Assembly (NCBI RefSeq): GCF_025602895.1
Contig: NW_026516364.1
Span: forward strand, 1 to 64,000
Length of the DNA: 64,000 nucleotides
DNA from: Polychytrium aggregatum
Lineage: Eukaryota; Chytridiomycota; Chytridiomycetes; Polychytriales
Reading direction: 5' to 3'
Of the stretch, positions 57,552-61,323 are shown piece after piece (position 1 is the stretch's first letter; every line of letters starts with the position of its first letter). The position numbers and the translations under genes were made by a program. The notes beneath the pieces are model-generated. The model worked only from the letters and a program-made list of their open reading frames with translations. It was not told the origin of the DNA and did not search any database.

Positions 57552-57607
57552 GCGGACGGCCGATCACTCAGTGGAGCTACCACAGCAGAGGACATGTACA
57601 CTTTATT

Positions 57608-57624
57608 CAGAAAAAAACGGGACA
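57608..57624 (+). repeat. Left terminal inverted repeat
   Basis: CAGAAAAAAACGGGACA pairs with the inverted copy at 61071-61087, with two mismatches near the outer edge. It overlaps a stem-loop (57615-57636). Confidence 0.8.
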
Positions 57625-57700
57625 ATATAGCCGTTTCCATGAACATGTAGTATGTGCTGTGCTTGCGTCAAGCAAAGCCACAAGAAATAAACAGATCACT
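57608..57700 (-). ncRNA. Predicted Fanzor guide (omega) RNA 3' part
   Basis: In TnpB and Fanzor systems the guide RNA is made from the 3' end of the nuclease gene through to the transposon end, and its guide comes from the flank. Here the stretch from the Fanzor stop to the left terminal repeat is 88 bases. It contains two perfect hairpins: TGCTTG/CAAGCA with a 3-base loop at 57660-57674, and AAACGG/CCGTTT with a 10-base loop at 57615-57636. The second uses terminal-repeat bases for one arm. Minus-strand transcription would then pass directly into flanking DNA at 57607, where an AATAAA (57607-57602) also begins. The 5' limit probably lies within the Fanzor coding end. No expression evidence; placement is inference. 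Confidence 0.45.
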
Positions 57701-60068
57701 TTGGCAGCCTCCGAGTGAAGACCTCACGTCGCTCTCCGGTCTCCACAATCGACCTGCATACTGTGATCATGTTGCGCGCCGCATTGACGTCGCGATTCCA
57801 CACTGTCCGGCAGCTGGGATTCTTGCAGCTCCTGACAAAGTGGGAATTCGCAACACTGGGCGCATCGAGTCCTTCCAACCGAACTGGCTCCAGGCACTTG
57901 GAGCACACTTGCGAGGTGTTGAACTCGTTCGTCGAGACTACCTTGACGCTTCCATGATGGTGATTGGGACGGCGTCGGTGGTGCTCGAACTGCTCAAAGT
58001 ACTGAGCAAACCGCTGCCTCCGAGGGCTGGATGCATAGCCCTTGCCTTGACGCCATGACGCATTGCCAAAGGCGATCACCACATCGGTCCGTATCGGGGC
58101 GTGCTTCAGGACAGCCTTGCACATCCTGTCGACGGCCACTTGGCGCCTCTTGTGGCCCGTGAAGCGATGGTGACGGGCCTTCTTGCCAAGGTGGAAGTCG
58201 AGCTGCACTCGAAGTTCCGGTCGCAGGACATGGGTGAGATGGACCTTGAAGGCCTCCGAGGACGACACCTTGGGCGAGGGAGTGGTCGACATCCAGGTCT
58301 CGATGCTGAGTCGATACTTCATGGTGTTGTGCCACTTGGTGTTGGACGTATGGCCACACATGTGCTGGTAGTGGCCATTCGAGAATGAGACCACCTCGTC
58401 TTGGTGGCCCGGTGCTTGGATGACCGCCGTGAAGATGGAGCCGACTCCAGGATCGATGCCAATCCAAGTGGTGCGGTTGGGGTCTGGGTCGCCGATGTGG
58501 GCCTGGATGCGCTGCTCGGCAGTCGGAGGAGGCTCGGAGGTCTCGGTGCGATCGGTTCGACGCACAAACTTGACGAGACCGATGGTGCATCCAATACCAT
58601 CGGTGCTGATCTCGTAGTTGAACAGCTTCTTGTCCCTGACCCGCTCTTGGAAGAGGGAACTACGCAGCTTGAAGCAACTGCGCCAGAGACGATCCTGGTT
58701 GTTGATGCCGTCATCACCTTCTTCCTTGAGCTTGTCCCGGGTGAGTCCAAGGCGCTTCTTTGGACCCAGGAGATTCCAAAGAGTGACCGTGTCAATCTTG
58801 ACATACTTGGCCTTGGCTGTGCACAGAGGAACTATCGTGCACACGGCCGGAGGAGTGTCGACGGCGAGCTGCTTGAGTGCCCAGTTGATCCTGGATGCCA
58901 GCTTGTTGATCTTGGCCTTGGTGGTGCCGAGCTCCGACTTGGCCTTGGTGAACCTCTTGTCGTCGGAGGGAATGCCTTGGGCAGTGAGCTTATCCAGCTT
59001 GGCCTGGCGCTGCAGCTCGGTGACTCGGAGGGCGGGCATGTCACAGTCGATCCACTTGTGGACATTGTCGACCATCTTGTCCCGGGCAAGGATCCCCACA
59101 TGGTGTGAGAGGCGATGGAGGGCCCGGAAGCGGTCCTGGTCGCTGCTGTACCGAAACTCGTCCAGGACGTGGCCAAACTCGGGATAGAGGAACTCGAGAT
59201 CGGCCTTGGGTGGTGTCTGCCCTGGTTTCTCGAAGAGCTCAAGACAGGCCTCGATGGCTTCGTGCTTGTGCTTGTTGGCTGGGAAGACGGCAGCGCAGAA
59301 GCGGCGAAGGAGTCGCCAGTAGGCCAGGTCGAGGTGGGTGGTGCAGTTGGTGGCATAGGCATTGACAGTCAGTGTGAGAAGCTGACTGTGAGCACCATCA
59401 GGCAGACGAGGGGCCGGAGGCAGGTCTGCGTGCCGAGTGGTCTGGTAGTCGCGAAAGGAAGCGACCAGATGCTCGTTGTATTTCTCATTGTCCCCGGTCG
59501 GCGAGAGGGCACCGTCCTGGACGATCTTGAAGCATTGACGGATGAAAGCAGGGGTGGACTTGGAGATGACGGGGACGGGAAGATCCTGCTCGATGCACCG
59601 GAGGATGTGCAGGTTGAGCAGCCTGGATGCCTCGAACTGGATCTGGGTCATGGCCTCGACGGTGGCCTGGATCTTGTCGCGGAGAGCGGGATTGAGACAA
59701 CAGCCATCCATCGTCTGCTTGAAGCAGCTGAACTGAGGGGCGGATGACCTTCCATCCACGAGTGGGACGACAGAACTCTTGAGGGGCCGGTATTTGGGAC
59801 ATTTGCTGGTGTTGCAACGTTCGTGATCGGTGCCATCGCACTGGCGACATCGCTTGCCAGTACTCGAGGAAGTAGATGGACCAGGCTCGGTGGGATCGAC
59901 ATCCATTGGATCTGCAGAAGCAGTGGTGGTGAGCGACGGAGCAACAGACGACCAAGCATGCGTGGGATCAGAATACGAACCAGAGACAGGCTCCGACTGT
60001 GACTTGGCTTTCTTGGGCCTGGGTGGCCGAGGCTGGCCATCACCGGCACCCTTACGCTTCGGAGGCAT
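57696..60068 (-). CDS. Fanzor (eukaryotic TnpB-like OMEGA RNA-guided endonuclease)
   Basis: A single intact ORF of 790 residues. The N-terminus is basic (MPPKRKGAGDGQPRPPRPKK), a probable nuclear signal. A zinc-knuckle-like Cys set follows at C74, C77, C85 and C90. The long middle part (100-520) should include the wedge/REC-like helices. RuvC-I is WIGIDPGVGSIFTAVIQA with D539. The usual RuvC-II strand VVIAFGNASW (662-672) has lost the acidic residue, and a glutamate appears instead at E715 in VVSTNEFNTSQVCSKC, the relocated catalytic glutamate known for Fanzors. The zinc ribbon uses C722, C725, C748 and C753, and RuvC-III aspartate D760 is in WNRDVNAARNM. Known Fanzors use a guide RNA to cut DNA in the nucleus. 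All predicted catalytic residues are present, so activity is plausible. A TATA box lies 130 bases upstream. Context suggests the Fanzor1 group; formal placement needs a tree. Confidence 0.93.
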   Translation of the reverse strand: MPPKRKGAGDGQPRPPRPKKAKSQSEPVSGSYSDPTHAWSSVAPSLTTTASADPMDVDPTEPGPSTSSSTGKRCRQCDGTDHERCNTSKCPKYRPLKSSVVPLVDGRSSAPQFSCFKQTMDGCCLNPALRDKIQATVEAMTQIQFEASRLLNLHILRCIEQDLPVPVISKSTPAFIRQCFKIVQDGALSPTGDNEKYNEHLVASFRDYQTTRHADLPPAPRLPDGAHSQLLTLTVNAYATNCTTHLDLAYWRLLRRFCAAVFPANKHKHEAIEACLELFEKPGQTPPKADLEFLYPEFGHVLDEFRYSSDQDRFRALHRLSHHVGILARDKMVDNVHKWIDCDMPALRVTELQRQAKLDKLTAQGIPSDDKRFTKAKSELGTTKAKINKLASRINWALKQLAVDTPPAVCTIVPLCTAKAKYVKIDTVTLWNLLGPKKRLGLTRDKLKEEGDDGINNQDRLWRSCFKLRSSLFQERVRDKKLFNYEISTDGIGCTIGLVKFVRRTDRTETSEPPPTAEQRIQAHIGDPDPNRTTWIGIDPGVGSIFTAVIQAPGHQDEVVSFSNGHYQHMCGHTSNTKWHNTMKYRLSIETWMSTTPSPKVSSSEAFKVHLTHVLRPELRVQLDFHLGKKARHHRFTGHKRRQVAVDRMCKAVLKHAPIRTDVVIAFGNASWRQGKGYASSPRRQRFAQYFEQFEHHRRRPNHHHGSVKVVSTNEFNTSQVCSKCLEPVRLEGLDAPSVANSHFVRSCKNPSCRTVWNRDVNAARNMITVCRSIVETGERREVFTRRLPK

Positions 60069-60197
60069 GGGGACAGAGGATGCTGGATGCCTGCCAGTGG
60101 TACTGGTCAGAGCAGAGACTTTTTTTATCGTACAATGGCGCGAATGATCAGATCAAGGCGAGATGAGGGACGAAAGCAGCAGGACGAAGGTGTGGCA

Positions 60198-60203
60198 TTT
60201 ATA
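60198..60203 (-). promoter_or_regulatory. TATA box upstream of Fanzor
   Basis: TATAAA on the minus strand, about 130 bases upstream of the Fanzor ATG at 60068 and inside the 290-base gap after the transposase remnant. This suggests that Fanzor has its own promoter. Confidence 0.5.
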
Positions 60204-60317
60204 CCCGAGAGCAGGAGCCCGTCTGCGCGGGCTGGTTGGGGAAGTGACCCTGTTCAAAAATCGCCGAGAGGTTCAAGCCAGGGATGTGAACGTGAAAATG
60301 GCGGCGTGATTGGGGAG

Positions 60318-60372
60318 CTCAACCCCAAATTGGAGGAACTCAACCCCAAATCGGTGGGGACTCAACCCCAAA
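60318..60372. repeat. Triple CTCAACCCCAAA direct repeat
   Basis: Three copies of CTCAACCCCAAA begin at 60318, 60339 and 60361, spaced 21 and 22 bases apart. They cover the 3' end of the transposase frame. Tandem slippage, or a junction left by an internal deletion, would explain them. Confidence 0.85.
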
Positions 60373-61012
60373 GAAGTTCTCGATGGGATTGAAGTCGGGT
60401 GAAGCAGGTGGGGTGAAGATCACTGACCATCCTCGGCGCTCGATGCAGCACACCAGAGTGGTTGATGGCAAATGCAGCCGAGACAGACTTGTGTTTCATG
60501 TGATTGCGCTGACGGAGTGGGACGCCCTTCGGTGAGTATCCGTAGAGAGGAAAAATGGATCTCCTGATCCCTGTCTCATCGACAAAAACGAATCGTCGTG
60601 GGTCGATGGAGCGGGCCTGGTCCCTGAACTGTGCCACTCGCTCATCCAGTCGCTTGGACTTGTAGAGGTGTGTTGCCCTCTTGTGTGAGAGACCTGCTCG
60701 GTGGATGGCAGTGTGGCAGAGTGAGAGTGATACTTTCCTCTGGAGGATGGACTCGAGCTTGCACCGCAACACAGGACCAGTCTGGAACGGGTCCTGTTCA
60801 ATCAGGGTGCGAATGACTGGACATGCCTGCTCGAAGAAAGTGGATCTGCGAGCTGGGACCCGGGATGGGTCATCCAGCTTGCATCCTCGGTGCCATCGAT
60901 GGATGGTGCTCTTGGATACACTGAATATGGAGGCGACCTTACGCAGGCTATGGATGAGATCGTAGCATCGCAATGCGGCGGTGCGAAAGTCGGATGTGTG
61001 GCGAATGGTCAT
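60362..61012 (-). pseudogene. Tc1/mariner (DDE_3) transposase, internally deleted
   Basis: The frame gives 216 residues. The N-terminus carries helix-turn-helix segments (HSLRKVASIFSVSKSTIHRW; GPVLRCKLESILQRKVSLSL). The first catalytic aspartate is D145 in FVFVDETGIRRSIFPLYGYS. After HMKHKSVSAAFAINHSGVLH the reading frame slips. In another minus-strand frame the sequence at about 60425-60370 reads FTPPASPDFNPIENFFG, the family motif that holds the third catalytic residue (P-x-S-P-D-x-N-P-I-E). The stretch between, which should hold the second aspartate, is missing: only about 60 residues separate the two motifs, where roughly twice that is normal. The enzyme is therefore dead, and the element cannot move on its own. 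It lies upstream of Fanzor on the same strand. Confidence 0.85.
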
Positions 61013-61070
61013 GGGCAGCGCGCGATAACATTGGGTAACAAAATATTCGATGAATGGTCAAAAACCCGGG

Positions 61071-61087
61071 TGTCCCGTTTTTTATTG
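61071..61087 (-). repeat. Right terminal inverted repeat
   Basis: On the minus strand this reads CAATAAAAAACGGGACA, matching the left end at 15 of 17 positions. It lies 59 bases outside the transposase start codon. Confidence 0.8.
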
Positions 61088-61323
61088 GATCGCCTGTAAA
61101 CAGTCGGTTACCAGTGCGCTGTCGGCAGTGGCTTGAGTCCCAATGCCAGGTACTAGATCAGCCCCAGTACCCACCTAGTTCCTTGCCCATGTCAACTGCG
61201 ACTGAACAACTGCGACGCAGAATCGCATCTACAGTTCCAAAAAGCTTCATTTCATAGAAGTGCGAGGGTCGACAGGCGTGAGAGTCGCGGCACCGGCCGC
61301 GAGACGCCTCTTTGGTCGGCCGC
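61088..61323. other. Gap between transposon and dioxygenase gene
   Basis: 236 bases right of the terminal repeat. No coding frame is seen; it should be the 3' flank of the dioxygenase gene. Confidence 0.4.

Follow-up and report, generated by a model that had tools for sequence, protein, structure and literature searches.

A high-copy Tc1/mariner element that probably carries a Fanzor1-type nuclease in Polychytrium aggregatum, seen from a non-autonomous copy

Among described Fanzor elements, the nearest in design to the one reported here is Spu-1 of Spizellomyces punctatus, whose nuclease SpuFz1 is likewise a Fanzor1 and which likewise has terminal repeats and TA duplications (PMC3627910, PMC10432273). 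As described there, bases conserved outside the 5' repeat of Spu-1 form its target motif together with the TA, its guide comes from the 3' flank, and its 19 full-length Fanzor genes are accompanied by 134 "ghosts", elements without genes in which the 3' RNA region is retained; no transposase was reported between the repeats (PMC10432273). Here we describe an element at positions 57599..61096 of a window of 64,000 nucleotides (the whole stretch of DNA analysed, positions 1-64,000 of contig NW_026516364.1) from Polychytrium aggregatum. From comparison with its relatives in the same genome, we consider it probable that this copy is a non-autonomous member of a high-copy Tc1/mariner family that carries a Fanzor1-type nuclease, with a guide-RNA life cycle that we infer from its parts.

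Judged from its genes and ends, the focal family appears to be of a known kind, Fanzor1 in Tc1/mariner elements. Its likeness to Spu-1 is one of design, sequence similarity of the two Fanzors not being established here: a guide from the 3' flank is likewise predicted, and 310-bp derivatives resemble the ghosts. The predicted target motif is TTA rather than CATA, a DD34E transposase is linked to the Fanzor, and Fanzor copies number about 250. Likened by description, PGv-1, PUl-1 and PUl-4 combine a Mariner-type transposase with a Fanzor1, or have a Fanzor1 alone with Mariner ends, and show TA duplications, as here; PGv-1 and three relatives are single-copy, unlike the focal family (PMC3627910). 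According to Yoon and co-workers (PMC10711439), the guide-RNA scaffolds of Fanzor1 include terminal repeats and target duplications, as is the case in the three-stem guide RNA sequenced for the Fanzor1 of Spodoptera frugiperda ascovirus, which belongs to a non-autonomous element of another, unknown transposon family; the guide RNA of the focal family, with the same arrangement, is a prediction. GtFz1 of Guillardia theta is likened by motif only, TTAA (PMC11423790) being near TTA. The TnpB of IS200/IS605, acting as a plasmid gene drive, uses a guide that keeps a record of where the element was inserted and thereby directs cutting to sites free of it; that system is bacterial, with single-stranded transposition, unlike the focal element (PMC11870625).

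The assembly searched comprises 64.68 Mb in 418 contigs (contigs and loci carry our working numbers, prefixed C and L). The core of the terminal repeat, AAAAAACGGGACA, gave 376+367 = 743 matches against 2+0 for the same pattern read backwards, and its occurrence is therefore above chance; Fanzor cores, allowing at most 2 mismatches, gave 250 matches against none for the reversed control. Ends were placed by aligning 39 copies in which both were found; of an initial 40, L033 was excluded because no right end could be located. More candidates existed, from which these copies were taken as the ones matching the window best, and the sample is tilted to intact copies. Similarity stops on each side at a TA, which precedes the element, in Fanzor orientation, in all 39 copies and follows it in 37. 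The initial annotation had placed the ends at inverted repeats of 17 bases (57608-57624 and 61071-61087, 15 identical), which are indeed present; they form the inner portion of an imperfect 26-base terminal repeat whose likeness lies mainly in its inner half. A unit with definable ends, uniting a Fanzor with a Tc1/mariner-type element, was thus correctly recognized, with its ends misplaced. Copies ending elsewhere had been named as evidence against it, and this is partly the case, the ends lying 9 bases further out on each side.

Several forms of the element were read. One, of 3.74 kb (L036-L040, also L053, L055 and L058), has both the transposase and the 790-residue Fanzor; the window copy and L002-L005 represent a 3.50-kb form; others are of 3.63 kb, of shorter lengths, of 1,110 bp (L043, L044) and of 310 bp. 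A consensus of five copies of the 3.74-kb form encodes a transposase of 310 residues with D145, D221 and E256, the last two 34 residues apart (DD34E), and matches PF13358 (DDE_3, E=1.3e-23); a match to HTH_23 (E=0.0016) falls under that domain's cut-off. This frame is open in four of the five copies first read, and in 5/8 when partner copies are included, and its ratio of nonsynonymous to synonymous polymorphism (pN/pS) is 0.18-0.21. TA duplications, terminal inverted repeats and a DD(34)E/D transposase in the 3.74-kb class place the family in Tc1/mariner. The window copy itself does not have the intact transposase of an autonomous Tc1/mariner element: about 134 bp are missing within the gene and a rearranged stretch follows it, leaving the 216-residue remnant that had been noticed at 60362-61012 (-), without two of the three catalytic residues. 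Although earlier taken for a complete transposon, it is, on this comparison, a non-autonomous, internally deleted derivative, and copies that are transposase-proficient, as judged from their reading frames, sit elsewhere in the genome. A transposase stretch absent from the shorter forms has 127 matches, which include some elements of a sister family (for example C63:31689 and C2:39303, beside Fanzor matches of the sister type). The 310-bp form, with 51 junctions in the genome, fuses 97 bp from the 5' end with 214 bp from the 3' end, the latter comprising the final 116 bp of the Fanzor reading frame plus a 98-nt non-coding stretch whose diversity (0.019) is the lowest among the regions compared; both ends and the putative guide-RNA region are kept in these elements (L041-L042, L063-L082).

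The Fanzor of the window was recognized from the outset as a frame of 790 codons (57696-60068, minus strand), and it carries the TnpB/Fanzor C-terminal domain (PF07282, E=1.7e-9). The signature given for Fanzor and TnpB, D-X(125-275)-[TS][TS]-X-X-C4 zinc finger-X(5-50)-RD (PMC3627910), is present in full: D539 is followed 178 residues on by T718 and S719, then by C722, C725, C748 and C753, and R759 D760 lie five residues past the last of these cysteines. Its residues are retained in 44-46 of 46 copies. Two extremely conserved residues of Fanzor1, G500 and E536 of SPu-1 (PMC3627910), would correspond, by order alone, to G668 and E715, which are invariant in the focal and sister families. Residence in a eukaryotic transposon other than IS607 (here with a linked DD34E transposase and TA), and a divergence from TnpB that Fanzor2 does not show, with PF07282 the only domain match where locus L047 also passes the OrfB_IS605 cut-off, further point to Fanzor1. 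A search of solved structures gave only weak matches to the TnpB-like LaTranC, over the zinc-finger end (E 0.34 and 0.037), and no relatives were found in viral contigs with either a single-protein search or a three-sequence profile. Dense blocks of replacements, with several residues changed together and recurrent across copies, occur at positions 2569-2588 (LLGPKKR or LLDTEHR) and 2697-2710 (RDVNKK, RVRDKK or RDINHK) of the 3.74-kb form.

The frame is intact in 30 of the 39 copies, at 790 residues in 29 and with an N-terminal extension in one; in 31 there is neither a stop nor a gap, whereas random placement of the observed changes, as in the absence of selection, would leave about 6 such copies, and pN/pS is 0.32 (300 random pairs among the 46 copies). 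By these measures the Fanzor is under purifying selection. The rival explanation is that the Fanzor is a passenger in a plain Tc1/mariner element whose transposase prefers TTA in one orientation. The 310-bp derivatives, which number at least 51 and have lost both genes, speak for it in that neither gene is needed in cis, and these derivatives also show the TTA bias described below (17 of 21 independent sites). We nevertheless regard a passenger role as unlikely, given the excess of open Fanzor frames and the low pN/pS, the retention of the Fanzor also in copies with a broken transposase, and that of the 3' guide-RNA stretch in the small derivatives. Against a selected Fanzor1 stand three points: the tilt of the 39 copies favours intact frames in these counts; a PDB search returned no Fanzor among its matches and no sequence match to a solved Fanzor; and an AlphaFold2 model from the single Fanzor sequence was unusable (mean predicted local distance difference test score 40.7).

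The sites occupied by the element share a one-sided preference. Of 37 independent full-length sites, 35 have a T directly before the TA on the Fanzor 5' side (P=2e-21 for the T); at the other end the base past the TA is C in 15, G in 12, A in 5 and T in 5, with no comparable bias. Small elements have TTA in 19/23 cases, or 17/21 without two same-site duplicates, the exceptions being L069 and L072, which have ATA, and L073 and L077, whose ends are unclear. TTA on the Fanzor 5' side is likely to be the target-adjacent motif, a prediction to which it can be objected that the bias could be the transposase's own preference. At the opposite end, a single hairpin plus a terminal stem is predicted for the last 85 nt; in the stem, upstream bases pair with the outer part of the terminal repeat and with the T of the TA. 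The ends of the sister family pair in the same manner with other letters (TACAGTC with GACTGTA, TA included). Only 17, 15 and 1 of 1,000 shuffles were as stable as the end pairing of the focal family and of two sister copies, respectively; cross-pairings between focal and sister ends are weaker than their own, but pairing between the two sister copies is roughly as strong as within either of them. Some 5' trims of the 122-nt stretch reached z=-2.5 to -3.4. We propose the 3' end as a putative guide-RNA scaffold whose terminal stem is closed by the duplicated TA together with the terminal repeat. Two results count against it: the whole 122-nt stretch folds no better than its shuffles (z=-1.1), and within the family (33 distinct sequences) too few changes occur for pair covariation. 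The initial annotation had expected such copies to reveal the guide RNA, the target motif and the life cycle, which holds as far as prediction goes (Table 1).

Table 1. Features of the element and its borders in the window
Feature	Position	Strand	Basis or remark
Predicted guide, the 15 nt of host sequence directly past the TA	57582..57596	-	Predicted; length from SpuFz1 (PMC10432273)
TA target-site duplication, Fanzor 3' side	57597..57598	.	TA here in 37/39 copies
Predicted guide-RNA scaffold, 85 nt, one hairpin and terminal stem	57597..57681	-	Prediction only
Whole element, 3,498 bp, Fanzor on minus strand; non-autonomous derivative	57599..61096	-	Copy alignment
3' terminal repeat (Fanzor side)	57599..57624	-	
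Fanzor, 790 aa: D539, E715, D760, zinc-finger C722/C725/C748/C753	57696..60068	-	
Three 21-bp tandem copies, rearranged stretch between transposase and Fanzor	60314..60377	-	Stands where the 3.74-kb form has the transposase C-terminus
Transposase remnant, 216 aa, first catalytic D kept, D221 and E256 absent	60362..61012	-	
8-bp junction of the ~134-bp internal deletion	60441..60448	.	
5' terminal repeat (transposase side)	61071..61096	-	
TA target-site duplication, Fanzor 5' side	61097..61098	.	TA here in 39/39 copies
TTA beside the Fanzor 5' end, predicted target-adjacent motif	61097..61099	-	35/37 independent full-length sites

The steps of a life cycle that can be read directly are insertion flanked by TA, an intact transposase in the 3.74-kb form, a Fanzor that is intact and selected in most of the copies sampled, derivatives without the transposase or without either gene, and the one-sided TTA bias. 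Between them we would place the following. The transposase, acting in trans, would cut and paste all forms. The 3' end of each copy would be transcribed into a guide RNA, with a scaffold that includes the terminal repeat as well as the duplicated TA, and with the host DNA directly past the 3' TA as its guide. Fanzor and guide RNA would then recognize TTA followed by the guide sequence, which are adjacent only in an emptied site; cutting of that site would lead to repair that puts the element back. The 310-bp derivatives, keeping the ends and the RNA region, would use the Fanzor in trans. At occupied sites, interiors may frequently be exchanged ectopically, candidate drivers being nicks by the transposase, cuts by the Fanzor and ordinary repeat recombination. 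Guides arising from self-insertions, which might cut the whole family, were considered and set aside, such flanks occurring only at L002/L051 and L024 among 71 elements: the 3' flank of L002/L051 is 93% like the Fanzor end of the sister family over 44 nt, and that of L024 has a short terminal-repeat-like match.

Some insertion sites are represented on two contigs. Four 600-base pieces of C190 map onto the window in order over 63 kb with 99.2-100% identity, and this collinear match indicates that C190 and C71 represent the same region in two versions; the copy that C190 holds where the window element is inserted measures 3,634 bp. Empty sites, suggested by the initial annotation as a check, were sought with the joined flanks of 18 full-length elements, 10 small elements and the window site, and no match to a junction was found. 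Scoring covered 40 of 484 candidates for the 18 full-length sites and all 17 for the 10 small-element sites; for 10 of the 18, a second search scored all 26 candidates. Only the 14 of the 29 searched sites that were seen on a second contig are informative, and each of the 14 carries an element on both contigs; L071 was not counted, since two further places matched its left flank but not its right one. Because no empty site was found, the restoration of emptied sites stays inferential, and this weighs against the proposed cycle. So does the state of the allelic elements described next, whose differences are unlike the outcome of copying from a homologous chromosome.

The two-contig set comprises 17 sites, 12 of them read and 5 judged by flank positions alone, and is not random: L031/L043 entered since L043 is short, and L079, L074 and L076/L078 entered via the 310-bp form. 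Element lengths differ by at least 100 bp at 11 of the 17, namely 8 of the 12 read (L001/L009, L002/L051, L027/L052, L014/L053, L011/L054, L004/L055, L018/L056, L031/L043) and 3 of the 5 by position (L079, L074, L021). The difference is no more than 20 bp at L007/L057, L039/L058, L019/L023 and L076/L078, as well as at L008 and L034, judged by position. Flanks of 11 pairs show 18 differences in 7,256 aligned columns. Nine pairs of elements longer than 3 kb show 1,036 in 31,682 (3.3%), about as many as unrelated copies (mean 3.6-4.6%), the exception being L019/L023 with 16 differences in 3,631; L076/L078 have 2. Within at most 90-100 bp of flank, 11 pairs still give 36 differences in 2,090 for the elements against 7 in 2,174 for the flanks (P=4e-6). 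The one control is a sister-family copy that is identical on two contigs over 1,101 bases, one of these contigs being only 15.6 kb long. Linkage among 205 two-state sites in 38 copies falls from a squared correlation (r2) of 0.58 within 5 bp to 0.07 at 16-30 bp and reaches the permuted level (0.03) past about 120 bp. Variants lie partly in dense blocks of 6-20 bp common to one to eleven copies, and short elements also contain incompatible site pairs and are thus mosaic.

We read the allelic differences as reflecting ectopic exchange of interiors between copies, consensus or assembly error being an alternative. Mixing among near-identical repeats during assembly could account for both the exchanged versions and the loss of linkage; we hold this to be possible but somewhat doubtful. 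Several observations favour it over exchange: linkage decays to background within about 30-60 bp, a distance shorter than usual conversion tracts, the 134-bp deletion is without association to neighbouring variants, variants common only to an allelic pair lie mostly near the ends, where the flank anchors reads, and a consensus from mixed reads would resemble exchange at the level of bases. The single differences of L019/L023, too, lie mostly at sites variable across the family. Consensus error would hardly make paired elements differ in length by 100 bp up to 3.3 kb, as they do at 11 of the 17 sites, however, and paired elements differ even within the 90-100 bp that reads anchor to the flank; L019/L023 and L076/L078 are nearly identical throughout, the short elements that reads readily span are mosaic as well, and neither the window nor the fetched loci contain an N. 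That paired elements are independent insertions into one TTA is highly improbable. The ends of L011/L054, which have no rare variants in common, would fit such an origin, but it would have to be invoked for the majority of the 17 sites, none was seen to be half-empty, and end variants rare elsewhere are common to both elements at L031/L043, L004/L055, L014/L053, L018/L056 and L002/L051.

A further conjecture, to which we give little credence, is that the family behaves as a recombining population with fixed addresses: both genome versions would share the insertion sites, each element would be replaced or rewritten by non-allelic copies much faster than its flanks change, and Fanzor cuts, guided for example by copies inside related elements, as at L002, would drive this exchange. 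If true, the Fanzor would be an engine of in-place replacement beyond a guard against loss. Among open-licence papers searched, we found no report of such exchange for Fanzor elements.

The genome holds further families. A second Fanzor of about 880 residues with a similar 3' end is represented by L046 (C402:39900-43300) and L050 (C375:2400-5000), 42 and 50% identical to the focal Fanzor over the aligned parts, and also by L083/L084 (C63, C326); next to the L046 gene, 43 bp resemble the terminal part of the focal transposase gene at 95%. L047 and L048 encode TnpB/Fanzor2-like proteins with OrfB_IS605 matches, the cut-off being passed only by L047 (C124:405300-407300). In the latter, a single open frame of 477 residues runs from a weak N-terminal MerR-type match, a motif we take to be IS607 TnpA-like, into the TnpB/Fanzor2-like part, and copies of equal score lie on C379, C49, C157 and C346. 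Focal elements are found in or beside sister-family or Fanzor2-like sequences at L002, L020 and L032. A reverse-transcriptase family (G000) has many open frames of 1,284 residues with equal scores, often several clustered per contig (for example C115, C201, C366, C1:1275421-1320684); considered as a Fanzor-free control for linkage, it looked too uniform by these scores.

One genome thus holds the full series of transposase with Fanzor, Fanzor alone, and gene-less ends with the RNA region, together with a second Fanzor on a similar backbone and, for every copy, a predicted motif and guide; this series bears on why transposons keep Fanzors. The surprising part is the apparent in-place exchange, in which a role of the Fanzor is a proposal. 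Fixed sites with differing versions on two near-identical contigs offer a way to test what the Fanzor does for its carriers, and exchange at those sites, if true, would be a natural record of events there.

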